Below are positions 1 to 37,549 of a DNA stretch of 48,816 nt, in pieces. The first letter of the stretch is position 1; the number at the start of each line of letters is the position of its first letter. The stretch is from NCBI GenBank assembly GCA_949291125.1, contig CASEUJ010000001.1, positions 1 through 48,816 of the forward strand, given 5' to 3'. The notes beneath the pieces were generated by a model that had not been told where the DNA came from, searched no databases, and saw only the letters and a list, made by a program, of their open reading frames with translations. Both the position numbers and the translations under genes were made by a program. Source of the DNA: an uncultured Ruminococcus sp. GTDB lineage: Bacteria; Bacillota; Clostridia; Oscillospirales; Ruminococcaceae.

Positions 1-61
1 ATTCGAACCCACGACCTCTGCCGTGACAGGGCAGCGTTCTAACCAACTGAACTACCAGACC
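1..61 (-). tRNA. tRNA-Asp (GTC), 3' end cut by window edge
   Basis: Read on the minus strand, the gene starts at 61 with acceptor arm GGTCTGG, then a D arm and an anticodon loop CTGTCAC, giving anticodon GTC (Asp). The T arm GGGTTCGAAT reaches the window edge, so the 3' acceptor strand is missing. It lies 3 bases after the tRNA-Val gene and is probably co-transcribed with it. Confidence 0.93.
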
Positions 62-64
62 ATA

Positions 65-140
65 TGGTGGAAACTATAGGGCTCGAACCTATGACCCTCT
101 GCTTGTAAGGCAGATGCTCTCCCAGCTGAGCTAAGCTTCC
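65..140 (-). tRNA. tRNA-Val (TAC)
   Basis: On the minus strand the acceptor stem GGAAGCT (134-140) pairs with AGTTTCC (69-75). The anticodon loop CTTACAA gives TAC (Val). The discriminator A is followed by an encoded CCA (65-67). It is first in the pair with tRNA-Asp, behind a consensus promoter at 205-233. Confidence 0.95.
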
Positions 141-34777: not shown

Positions 34778-35311
34778 TTATGCGTTTTTGGTTTGATTTT
34801 GTGCTGCAGGTTTCGCATCCTTTTTCTTGAAGATCACAAGCTTGCTGAAAATATAATTGAGCGTCAGGATCACCACCTGTGCAACAATCTTCACGATGAA
34901 CGAACGCCATGTCACGATCGTACCATCCACCGTTGCGAAGAAATGATTACCGATCTCCATGATCGCAAGTTCCAGAAAATAGGTGACAAAGCGCGCGCTG
35001 TAAAACATAAAAAATTCGCGCCAGAACGCCGCCATAGTATCAGTATGGCTCTTGAACACATAGCGTTTGTTGGTAAAAAAAGCAAACGTCACCGAAACGA
35101 TCCACGAGATCGTCGTCGACAGGAATGTATTGAGCCAACCTGCCATATGCATGCCATTGAAAATTTCAGTGGGAACCACCTGTGAAATCAGTGACACCAA
35201 GGTCGTAAGTCCGCCAACGAGAATATACATCCAGACCGATTCATGATCATACCAGAGCTTTTGCAGTGGCTTCGGCAGTTTGCCGATGATCCACGCAATC
35301 AACTTTTCCAT
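34778..35311 (-). CDS. GtrA family protein
   Basis: A 177-residue polytopic protein of the GtrA/DPMS family with four membrane helices (about 30-50, 60-85, 98-120, 133-155). The NKRYVFKS motif (about 85-92) is typical. GtrA proteins help flip undecaprenyl-phosphate sugars across the membrane for envelope glycosylation. A Lys/Ala-rich tail follows. Start at 35311 has AAAGGA 12 bases away; a GTG at 35347 overlapping the corA stop is a possible alternative. Confidence 0.87.
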   Translation of the reverse strand: MEKLIAWIIGKLPKPLQKLWYDHESVWMYILVGGLTTLVSLISQVVPTEIFNGMHMAGWLNTFLSTTISWIVSVTFAFFTNKRYVFKSHTDTMAAFWREFFMFYSARFVTYFLELAIMEIGNHFFATVDGTIVTWRSFIVKIVAQVVILTLNYIFSKLVIFKKKDAKPAAQNQTKNA

Positions 35312-35346
35312 ATGTGTTTCAGATCCTTTCTCATCAATTCTTTGCA

Positions 35347-36276
35347 CTATTTTTTCTTATATTTGAACAAAATCAGCGCCACCAGCATCGTCAATGCGAC
35401 TGCAATCACCGTCGGAAACCACGTGTGTTCCGCACCGGGCAAATCCGACGTATTCATGCCATAAAAGCTGAATACCATTGTCGGGATCGCCAAAATGATC
35501 GTGACCATTGTCAGGCGCCACATGACGATATTGAGATTATTTGAGATTGCAGAACCAAACGCCTCGACAACGCTCGACAAAATGCTGGAGTAAATGCTCG
35601 CCATTTCTTGCGCCTGTTTCAATTCGATCAGTACATCTTCAAGCAGATCCTGATCCTCTTCATAAAGTTTGAGCACTCGTCCGCGCAGGATCTTATTCAT
35701 CGTCACATCATTAGACTTTAGTGAAGTGGAAAAGTAAATCAGGGATTTTTCCAGCTCAAGCATTTGGCTCAGCTCATGGTTTTTCATCGCGCCCTGTAAT
35801 TTTCGCTGGAGGGCGCTTGAACTCTTATCGATCTGTTTCAGATAAACCAGAAAAGACGAAGTAATGTTCATCATCAGCCGCAGTACAAACTGCGTACGGA
35901 AGTTCGTCTGGATATTACGCACTCTACCGCTTATTACATCGTCGATTACCTTATTTTCACGCAAAGAAATCGTGAATACATGATGATTGGTCAGAATAAT
36001 TCCAAGCGGCATGGTATAAAAAATCAGCGTATCATCTTTCTGCACTTCTGATACTGCCGTATCGACAATGATCAGTGTCTGTTCTTCCTCCTGTTCCACA
36101 CGGGATGATTCTTCTTCATCGAGAGAGGACTTCAAAAAATCGCTGTCCAGCCCGTACTCTTCTATCAGCATTTTCCGTTCCTGCGCTGTAGGGTCAACAA
36201 CGGATACCCAACATCCGGGTACGAGCGAACTGATCTCAATCAAACGATTGGCAACAGTTTTATAATATGAGATCAA
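35347..36276 (-). CDS. corA: CorA-type magnesium transporter
   Basis: A 309-residue CorA-family channel. A cytoplasmic domain (about 1-245) is rich in acidic and helical segments, with two C-terminal membrane helices (about 250-272 and 282-303) and the signature YGMN (in FSFYGMN). It carries Mg2+, also Co2+/Ni2+, down its gradient. The start is taken as TTG at 36276, 8 bases after AAGGTGG. The LISYYKTVANRLIEI opening matches the family start. A longer in-frame ATG at 36330 would cross the leader hairpin. Translation is probably controlled by the leader peptide at 36335-36382. Confidence 0.92.
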   Translation of the reverse strand: MISYYKTVANRLIEISSLVPGCWVSVVDPTAQERKMLIEEYGLDSDFLKSSLDEEESSRVEQEEEQTLIIVDTAVSEVQKDDTLIFYTMPLGIILTNHHVFTISLRENKVIDDVISGRVRNIQTNFRTQFVLRLMMNITSSFLVYLKQIDKSSSALQRKLQGAMKNHELSQMLELEKSLIYFSTSLKSNDVTMNKILRGRVLKLYEEDQDLLEDVLIELKQAQEMASIYSSILSSVVEAFGSAISNNLNIVMWRLTMVTIILAIPTMVFSFYGMNTSDLPGAEHTWFPTVIAVALTMLVALILFKYKKK

Positions 36277-36278
36277 GT

Positions 36279-36336
36279 CATATACCACCTTTCCACAGAA
36301 GGCGGCTACAACTGTTGCAGCGAAAGCCAACCTTCT
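36279..36336 (-). promoter_or_regulatory. Two mutually exclusive hairpins ahead of corA
   Basis: Sequestor: CCGCCTT (36299-36305) pairs with AAGGTGG (36285-36291), the corA ribosome site, with one G-U and a 7-base loop. Anti-sequestor: AGAAGG (36331-36336) pairs with CCTTCT (36297-36302), with an inner GCTGCAA/TTGTAGC stem (36305-36321). Both need the same CCTT bases. AGAAGG overlaps the leader-peptide stop codon, so a ribosome there blocks the anti-sequestor. Confidence 0.65.
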
Positions 36337-36382
36337 ATATCATTTTTACGTTCATCCATAAGGGATATGGGTCAGCGTTCAT
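36335..36382 (-). CDS. corA leader peptide (MgtL-like)
   Basis: A 15-codon frame, MNADPYPLWMNVKMI, behind a strong ribosome site AGGAGGTG (36387-36394) 6 bases from the ATG. It lies in the corA leader, 58 bases ahead of the corA start. The Asp-Pro-Tyr-Pro segment near the N-terminus recalls the EPDP-type stretch of enterobacterial MgtL, where acidic/proline residues destabilise ribosomes at low Mg2+. Its stop TAG abuts the anti-sequestor hairpin. No other sense for this frame is evident. Confidence 0.7.
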   Translation of the reverse strand: MNADPYPLWMNVKMI

Positions 36383-36458
36383 GCTGCACCTCCTAATTGT
36401 AAATTGAAACGACGCACATTCTGACAATCATACATCGGCACAAACATTCCTATTTTAT

Positions 36459-36487
36459 ATTATAACAAAATAATTTTTGTTTTGCAA
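36459..36487 (-). promoter_or_regulatory. Sigma-A promoter of corA
   Basis: On the minus strand TTGCAA (36482-36487) and TATAAT (36459-36464) with a 17-base spacer. The leader to corA is about 175 bases long. Confidence 0.82.
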
Positions 36488-36536: not shown

Positions 36537-36572
36537 AAAAAACAAGACAGCCATCCGAAAAGACAGCTGCCC
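36537..36572 (-). terminator. Probable terminator after sufB
   Basis: On the minus strand GGGCAGC (36566-36572) can pair with GCTGTCT (36545-36551) using G-U pairs, followed by TTG and TTTTTT (36537-36542). Confidence 0.5.
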
Positions 36573-36631: not shown

Positions 36632-37549
36632 TTATTTTAAGAATCCGGCAATAATGCGTTCTTCCGCCTCCTGCTCAGTCAAACCGAGCGTACAGAGTTT
36701 CAGGATCTGTTCGCCTGCAATTTTACCGATCGCCGCCTCATGAATCAGGGCAGCATCAACATTTGATGCCTCCAACGCTGGTGCAGCTGTGACAGAGCCT
36801 TCGTCCGCCAGAATCGCATCGCATTCAGAATGTCCGGTGCAGCGTGTCAGGCCATGCAGCTCTGATACAAAATGCTGTTTGGAATGTCCTCTTGCAACGG
36901 AACGCGAGATCAGATCGACGCCCGAATCCTCACCACGCAGAACAACGGAAAATTCAGAGTCTGCCTGTTCGTCGCCGTCAGTAAGAATACGCTCCTGAAT
37001 CAGGATTTTTGCACGTGCCTCCAGCTCCGCCTTTGTTTTGCGGCGTGAATGATCAACACCCCCAAGCTGAACCGTATCCATTTCAAGTACCGCATCCTCT
37101 TCAAGATATGCTTCTGTCACCGGATCGATGACGCGATTGGCCTTTTGTGCACCGGTTCCGATATGCTTTTCCTGATAAAGGACATGAGAATTTTTTCCCA
37201 TAAAAAAGCGGTGAATGCCATTGTGCATCGTTTCTGCACCGTGTTCCGCATGAATGCCGCATCCTGCAACGATTGTCACATCTGCGCCCTCACCCACATG
37301 AAAATCATTATAAACCAAATCATGATAACCCGACTGCGTGACACAAGCAGGAATAAACACCTTTTCGCCCTTTGTCCTCGGGTCAATGAAGATATCCAGT
37401 CCGGGCTGATCTGTCTTAGAAACAATGCGGATATGCTCAGTAGAATTACGCTCGGCACACTGTCCATTTGAACGAATATTATATGCGCCGTCATATTTCC
37501 CATCATAGTCTGAAACCAGTTTTAACAATTCCTTCAGTTTTGATTCCAT
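36632..37549 (-). CDS. sufB: SufB/SufD-type Fe-S scaffold protein (short, minimal type)
   Basis: A 305-residue protein with the SufB/SufD beta-helix core, shorter than classical SufB (about 465). Visible are the helix-rich N-terminus, VIVAGCGIHAEHG-like beta region with Cys about 97, H-rich GIHAEHGAETMHNGIHRF, and the C-terminal TRCTGHSECDAIL and ASNVDAALIHEAAIGKI segments where SufB ligands (Glu/His) lie. Together with sufC it fits the two-gene SMS (SufCB minimal) system known from archaea and anaerobes. Its ATG overlaps the sufC stop (TAATG). Confidence 0.9.
   Translation of the reverse strand: MESKLKELLKLVSDYDGKYDGAYNIRSNGQCAERNSTEHIRIVSKTDQPGLDIFIDPRTKGEKVFIPACVTQSGYHDLVYNDFHVGEGADVTIVAGCGIHAEHGAETMHNGIHRFFMGKNSHVLYQEKHIGTGAQKANRVIDPVTEAYLEEDAVLEMDTVQLGGVDHSRRKTKAELEARAKILIQERILTDGDEQADSEFSVVLRGEDSGVDLISRSVARGHSKQHFVSELHGLTRCTGHSECDAILADEGSVTAAPALEASNVDAALIHEAAIGKIAGEQILKLCTLGLTEQEAEERIIAGFLK

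Follow-up and report, generated by a model that had tools for sequence, protein, structure and literature searches.

The gene of a CorA-like magnesium transporter in a gut Ruminococcus is preceded by a tiny peptide gene, a leader that is conserved at the level of its peptide and that is linked to Mg2+ transporter genes in related bacteria. RNA folding predicts two mutually exclusive pairings between leader and transporter gene, and a switch between them, in the genus of the window (the whole stretch of DNA analyzed, 48,816 nucleotides). We consider it probable that the arrangement is a cis-acting leader-peptide switch for Mg2+ uptake, in which the ribosome itself senses Mg2+.

Organization of the leader and corA

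The locus lies on the minus strand, and its features are listed in the order of transcription, in window coordinates.

36545–36572, minus strand: terminator-like hairpin (intrinsic) of the preceding transcription unit, with a 12-pair stem and the tail TGTTTTTTGC
36459–36487, minus strand: sigma-A-type promoter-like site TTGCAA-17-TATAAT with a TG before the -10 element, 10 of 12 matches
36387–36394, minus strand: leader ribosome site AGGAGGTG, read from the sequence
36335–36382, minus strand: leader ORF MNADPYPLWMNVKMI, 15 codons, from ATG at 36382 to the TAG stop at 36337–36335
36368–36373, minus strand: conserved Asp4-Pro5 codons (GAC CCA), from the codon comparison of 48 leaders
36330–36339, minus strand: S1, UAUAGAAGGU, which holds the leader stop codon and pairs with S2 (predicted fold)
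36299–36313, minus strand: 5' arm of the sequestering hairpin, AGUUGUAGCCGCCUU, with bases in common with S2 (predicted fold)
36294–36303, minus strand: S2, GCCUUCUGUG, partner of S1 (predicted fold)
36285–36292, minus strand: corA ribosome site AAAGGTGG, read from the sequence
36276–36291, minus strand: S3, which forms the 3' arm of the sequestering hairpin and spans the corA ribosome site plus the first base of the start codon (predicted fold)
35347–36276, minus strand: corA, 309 amino acids, TTG start at 36276, matched by PF01544, GMN signature read by eye

The original prediction started from a 15-codon frame with a ribosome site and Asp-Pro-Tyr-Pro near its start, and this frame is present (minus strand, 36394–36335), with D4-P5-Y6-P7 at 36373–36362 (minus strand). 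Positions 2 and 3 are Asn and Ala, the only acidic residue near the start is at codon 4, and prolines occur at codons 5 and 7 only. The transporter scores 166.7 bits against PF01544 (cut-off 27) and 114.7 bits against TIGR00383, under the curated cut-off of 200.75, and the safe name is therefore CorA-like Mg2+ transporter.

The sole terminator-like site of the window region (one found, 0.2 expected in shuffles) lies upstream of the promoter-like site, next to a preceding unit whose gene at 36632–37549 we take to be sufB. Promoter-like sites number three in the region, against 1.5 expected in shuffles. A genus-wide scan, run without a shuffle control, looked for the best promoter-like site no more than 150 nt from the leader ATG: 14 of 15 members reach 10 or 11 of the 12 matches, and L012 reaches 8. 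The promoter-like site suggests that leader and corA have a transcript of their own.

An ORF at 34778–35347 (minus strand), presumably for a GtrA-family membrane protein, begins where corA ends and may be cotranscribed with it. Two tRNA matches, one of them incomplete, lie at the window edge (1–140, minus strand). A programmed frameshift was considered for the leader, which is overlapped by an ORF in another frame, MDERKNDIEGWLSLQQL; it was rejected, as the relatives compared show no similar ORF in other frames.

Predicted alternative RNA structures at the corA ribosome site

The leader stop codon sits inside S1, and a ribosome terminating on the leader must therefore cover S1. AGAAGG (36336–36331, minus strand) overlaps the stop and had been proposed to pair with CCTTCT (36302–36297, minus strand); the fold of 36340–36270 indeed gives the S1:S2 hairpin, with 10 pairs at −23.4 kcal/mol (z −2.58; matched by 5 of 200 shuffles). 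The further proposal that the CCTT bases can pair with the corA ribosome site instead is reproduced when S1 is removed. The fold of 36323–36270 is then a 15-pair hairpin of −15.1 kcal/mol that includes the corA site, extends to the start codon and leaves the site closed; by energy alone it is unremarkable (z −1.17; matched by 26 of 200 shuffles). The predicted cost of opening the corA site is 3.9 kcal/mol with S1 free and 7.8 kcal/mol with a ribosome on the leader stop, the direction that had been foreseen; when the upstream part was shuffled, the site became as easy to open in 1 case of 60.

The window leader matches no Rfam family at the gathering score, and at ten genus loci Rfam gave no leader match with E up to 1. 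The M-box (ykoK) riboswitch (RF00380) is an RNA aptamer that places Gram-positive transporter genes under Mg2+ control; it was found neither in the window nor in any of the 16 genus genomes, seven of which are at least 90% complete.

Conservation in the genus

A corA match is found in 16 of 16 genus genomes and the leader in 15, beginning with MNADPYP in 14 of them and with MRADPYP in one (L017). The leaderless genome has the most diverged CorA of the genus (59% identity). After codon 7 or 8 the peptides diverge, with lengths from 13 to 82 codons, and none has two consecutive prolines in codons 1–9. By eye, S1 coincides with the final codons of the leader or directly follows the stop, which lies 31–70 nt from the corA start; even the 82-codon leader of L012 ends with its stop adjoining S1.

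A ribosome on the leader stop is predicted to make the corA site costlier to open in 13 of 15 genus members, the exceptions being L014 (opposite direction) and L023 (neutral). With footprints of 6–14 nt, 12 or 13 of the 15 fit, at Wilcoxon p-values of 3e-5 to 6e-4 that are optimistic, the species being related. In L019 the corA site remains closed in the free fold if the last stretch alone is folded, and its switch would therefore need a longer stretch or a particular folding order.

Both hairpins recur in these genomes. In L017, S1 and S2 differ in sequence while their pairing and the alternative hairpin are retained. Pairing was counted in the seven closest members: each of the nine S1:S2 pairs is kept in all seven, as are 14 of the 15 S2:S3 pairs. 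Only a few of the pairs show any variation, and because these members are almost invariant they say little on covariation. The pair counts cover these seven only, since the alignment of 15 genus regions placed S1 wrongly in diverged members, as judged by eye.

Asp-Pro leaders upstream of corA beyond the genus

Upstream regions of corA were compared at 101 loci, 16 from the genus, 49 from the rest of the family, 18 from the rest of the order and 18 from the rest of the class. A leader was defined as an ORF of at most 90 codons with Asp-Pro at codons 4–5 and a ribosome-site match of at least 4 nt, within 330 nt of the gene. Such a leader is present in 61 of the 101 regions (15/16 genus, 30/49 family, 9/18 order and 7/18 class) and, by the same criterion, absent from 40; these counts come from related genomes and are uncorrected for kinship. 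Two regions with Asp-Pro at codons 3–4 (L074, L122) are excluded from the 61, the gene start is approximate in seven regions (L086, L161, L162, L165, L167, L168 and L170), and G068, G094, one of two G056 fragments and a partial match (L171) were left out. The expectation of a conserved DPxP peptide thus stands within the genus, at 15 of 16 genomes, and has to be narrowed beyond it: Tyr6-Pro7 is not general, and the core found in 61 of 101 regions is Asp4-Pro5. With a DPYP pattern, matched in 5 of 297 family genomes, the leader had appeared confined to the genus, and a Ser/Asn-Pro-Asp-Pro pattern was matched in 3 of 348 phylum genomes; direct reading upstream of corA showed that both patterns were too narrow.

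Short ORFs and hairpins are common, and the bare pattern of ribosome site, start, two codons and GACCC is unspecific genome-wide: summed over the 90 family genomes, it is matched 67 times and its reverse 142 times. Both facts would fit a chance ORF followed by chance hairpins. Against this, 19 of the 67 matches directly precede corA, and in the remainder of these stretches and in mgtE loci the leader criterion gave 4 matches over 852,020 bases with both strands counted (0.0015 per region), compared with 61 in 101 corA regions. None of 1355 control ORFs with a ribosome site in front has Asp-Pro at codons 4–5, which puts the leader beyond chance. The control counts refute chance for the leader, and we assign a negligible probability to coincidence as an account of leader and hairpins together. 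A scan of named genomes returned 22 stretches: 14 genus contigs, L042 (described below) and seven other ORFs, short or long, that by eye do not precede corA. L133 presumably lies inside a valyl-tRNA synthetase gene.

Among 48 Asp4-Pro5 leaders, 45 use GAC for Asp and three use GAT, and all four Pro codons (CCA, CCG, CCT and CCC) occur. Translation starts at ATG, GTG or TTG, and the third residue may be Pro, Ala, Gly, Thr or Ser. We read the variable third base of Pro and the variable start as selection on the peptide. The near-constant GAC would also suit a conserved part that works as RNA, as a small hairpin or a metal-binding fold with an incidental peptide, and by eye a CCC-NNNN-GGG hairpin is possible over codons 5–8 in several family leaders (L054, L055, L059 and L062). 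Such a role is very improbable: the hairpin is absent from the genus of the window, the Rfam searches described above found no known family, and Asp and Pro stay constant while the Pro third base and the start codon vary, in leaders that were chosen for Asp-Pro.

The predicted switch outside the genus

In the first test set, 26 of 38 leaders behave as the model predicts, a figure that, like its p-value, is carried by the genus; outside it, 23 leaders were testable, of which 13 agree with the model and 9 go in the opposite direction. Of ten further leaders, nine before corA plus the mgtE leader of L042, 8 agree, 1 disagrees and 1 is neutral, and of seven more, three were testable (2 for, 1 neutral). 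On these predictions the hairpin switch is not general outside the genus, where the test is mixed. The expectation that both hairpins would be found in relatives held in the genus, L017 with its differing arms included, and holds for part of the leaders beyond it.

In 12 of 50 leaders of the first set and 4 of 7 of the last, a ribosome at the stop reaches the ribosome site of the transporter gene, or the leader overlaps the gene; the output must therefore differ at those leaders, by direct cover, overlap or coupling. At 12 of the 61 leader-bearing corA loci, leader and corA overlap or stand no more than 21 nt apart, counted from the leader stop to the corA start. At L070, L072, L076, L079 and L080 (11–16 nt) and at L075, L098 and L108 (overlap), the stop is at or beyond the corA ribosome site, and the readout must for this reason differ from S1/S2/S3.

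These short distances make coupling plausible, and they lend some weight to the opposite sign of control, in which leader translation activates corA by coupling, by reinitiation or through a ribosome that melts the corA hairpin. The 9 of 23 leaders outside the genus whose corA site is easier to open with a ribosome at the stop point the same way. In the genus, by contrast, the gap is 31–70 nt, S1 is at or near the leader stop, and the corA site is predicted to be closed in 13 of 15 members; we judge activation by leader translation improbable.

A crude scan found a terminator-like element between leader and gene at 2 of 65 loci (L078 and L109). Its absence from the other 63 suggests control at the translational level, and Rho is also possible.

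Leaders upstream of mgtE and their co-occurrence with the M-box

The mgtE genes encode a family of Mg2+ transporters unrelated to CorA. One Asp-Pro leader, MDADPYPAEHIYLYH, precedes mgtE in Clostridia bacterium RGIG3096 (L042; TIGR00400, 477.5 bits, cut-off 232.75); it was found via the leader pattern and is biased as a count. In a sample of 70 of 78 mgtE places, the strict Asp4-Pro5 leader occurs at 3 of 70 loci, and a short ORF led by a ribosome site and with Asp or Glu at codon 2 precedes 33 of the 70 genes. Asp or Glu is at codon 2 in 34 of 74 such ribosome-site-led short ORFs before mgtE and in 72 of 1316 control ORFs, a feature picked after viewing the list of mgtE leaders. Examples are MDYDPLP, MDSDPLP, MDYPDPLP, MDSGPLP and MDAYPGR. 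The mgtE regions as a whole (L172–L241) hold diverse Met-Asp leaders that extend far past Asp4-Pro5, MDAYPGR, MDADSSR, MDAGSSS and MDNIPGR among them.

Of the 70 mgtE loci, 51 were scanned with Rfam, and ten have an M-box. In six of these ten (L188, L193, L195, L197, L210 and L235) the stretch from the M-box to mgtE contains the start of a leader whose second codon is Asp, so that an M-box stands upstream of a related leader and two layers of Mg2+ control are possible. The mgtE leaders, six of them behind an M-box, support Mg2+ as the subject of the control. Relatives of the L193 mgtE were found in its own genome only, the order holding a single genome.

Proposed mechanism and comparison with known systems

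The leader would be translated from its strong ribosome site on the transcript of corA itself. When Mg2+ is sufficient, ribosomes would clear Asp4-Pro5, reach the stop and cover S1, upon which S2 would pair with S3 and the corA ribosome site would be hidden. At low Mg2+, a ribosome with a short Asp-Pro nascent chain would be unstable and would drop off, or lag, near codon 5; S1 would then be free, the S1:S2 hairpin would form and corA would be translated. Mg2+ as the signal, drop-off as the event and the sign of control are what we infer, and what leads from the Asp-Pro core to Mg2+-dependent drop-off is analogy with the precedent of MgtL.

The locus has the sequence features of leader-peptide translational attenuators: a conserved leader ORF, predicted exclusive hairpins of which one hides the downstream ribosome site, and no terminator. 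In erm-type translational attenuators, the position of the leader ribosome selects a hairpin that hides the downstream ribosome site; there the event is drug-induced stalling, and signal and target differ from those of the window leader.

MgtL of enterobacterial mgtA resembles the window leader in being a short leader before a Mg2+ transporter gene, with Asp4-Pro5 at the same codons, and in having exclusive RNA structures and a target that is on if leader elongation fails, as predicted here. Low Mg2+ favors ribosome dissociation at the EPDP residues of MgtL, and replacement of Glu2 and Asp4 by Gln and Asn made expression of a downstream mgtA fusion undetectable, according to the available part of PMC11282234. 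In the accessible accounts, MgtL has Glu2-Pro3-Asp4-Pro5 and prolines at 3, 5, 7 and 9, whereas the window leader, with Asn2-Ala3 and prolines at 5 and 7, has a weaker motif; MgtL works by Rho-dependent termination and its target is the P-type ATPase gene mgtA, and the window leader is predicted to act through a ribosome-site-hiding hairpin on corA (PF01544). A subclade of the corA leaders carries a second acidic residue at codon 2 (MDGDP, VEGDP), a likeness to MgtL that we count in favor of the analogy.

The same RNA switch could also respond to a pause instead of drop-off, if the leader sensed slow decoding or peptide-bond formation at Asp-Pro, through EF-P, charged tRNA-Pro or other translation stress. 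A ribosome held at codons 5–7 of the window leader would free S1 as drop-off would, and loss of EF-P raises mgtA mRNA via the Pro codons of mgtL, by the account in the accessible part of PMC6460261. However, the leaders precede genes of two families of Mg2+ transporters, some of them stand behind M-box riboswitches, and the genus leaders lack consecutive prolines in codons 1–9. We regard pausing as unlikely, with a limited but real chance, and retain Mg2+-dependent drop-off as the probable event.

In mgtQ, the leader of Salmonella mgtB, acidic codons reduce translation of the leader and increase expression of the target, and alternative stem-loops mask or free the ribosome site of the transporter gene, as is predicted for the window (PMC8092293, available part). 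As described there, mgtQ is intergenic and has 8 codons with acidic residues at 2 and 5, compared with 15 codons, an acidic residue at codon 4 only and an own promoter-like site in the window; loss of the mgtQ start codon lowers mgtB, whereas our model predicts that loss of the leader start would raise corA. The window leader would work like MgtL and mgtQ and is a member of neither. The corL leader of E. coli and Salmonella likewise precedes corA, and its translation is inversely related to corA expression; it has a UUG start and Rho-dependent termination, and is set beside the window leader by its description in the accessible part of PMC11552253, not by its peptide. Mg2+-related RNA control with a small uORF and a translational platform is also described for the M. 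tuberculosis M-box, where the conserved uORF is the regulated part and its peptide is, by the portion available of PMC12810186, specific to mycobacteria.

In the accessible literature, including the motif surveys PMC11109978 and PMC8632094 and with most subscription papers outside the search, we found no Asp-Pro leader before corA or mgtE in Gram-positive bacteria. This mode of control is known already; what looks new is the host group, the targets, the peptide core and the output.

We lean slightly towards a wider reading. Clostridia would have an old, class-wide family of Asp/Pro leaders that sense Mg2+ through the Mg2+ dependence of the ribosome and act on corA as well as mgtE. Their outputs would be interchangeable (a hairpin at the ribosome site, direct cover by the terminating ribosome, or overlap), the leaders would in places be stacked behind an M-box, and MgtL would be one case, independent or very distantly related, of a device found in bacteria generally. 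Leader peptides through which the ribosome senses Mg2+ are documented from enterobacteria; if an Asp-Pro device of this logic governs both genes across Clostridia, it would amount to a general regulatory principle, and it would provide Mg2+ control in genomes without a detected M-box, such as those of the genus of the window. The genus has a named carrier strain, Ruminococcus callidus ATCC 27760, which makes the device directly testable.
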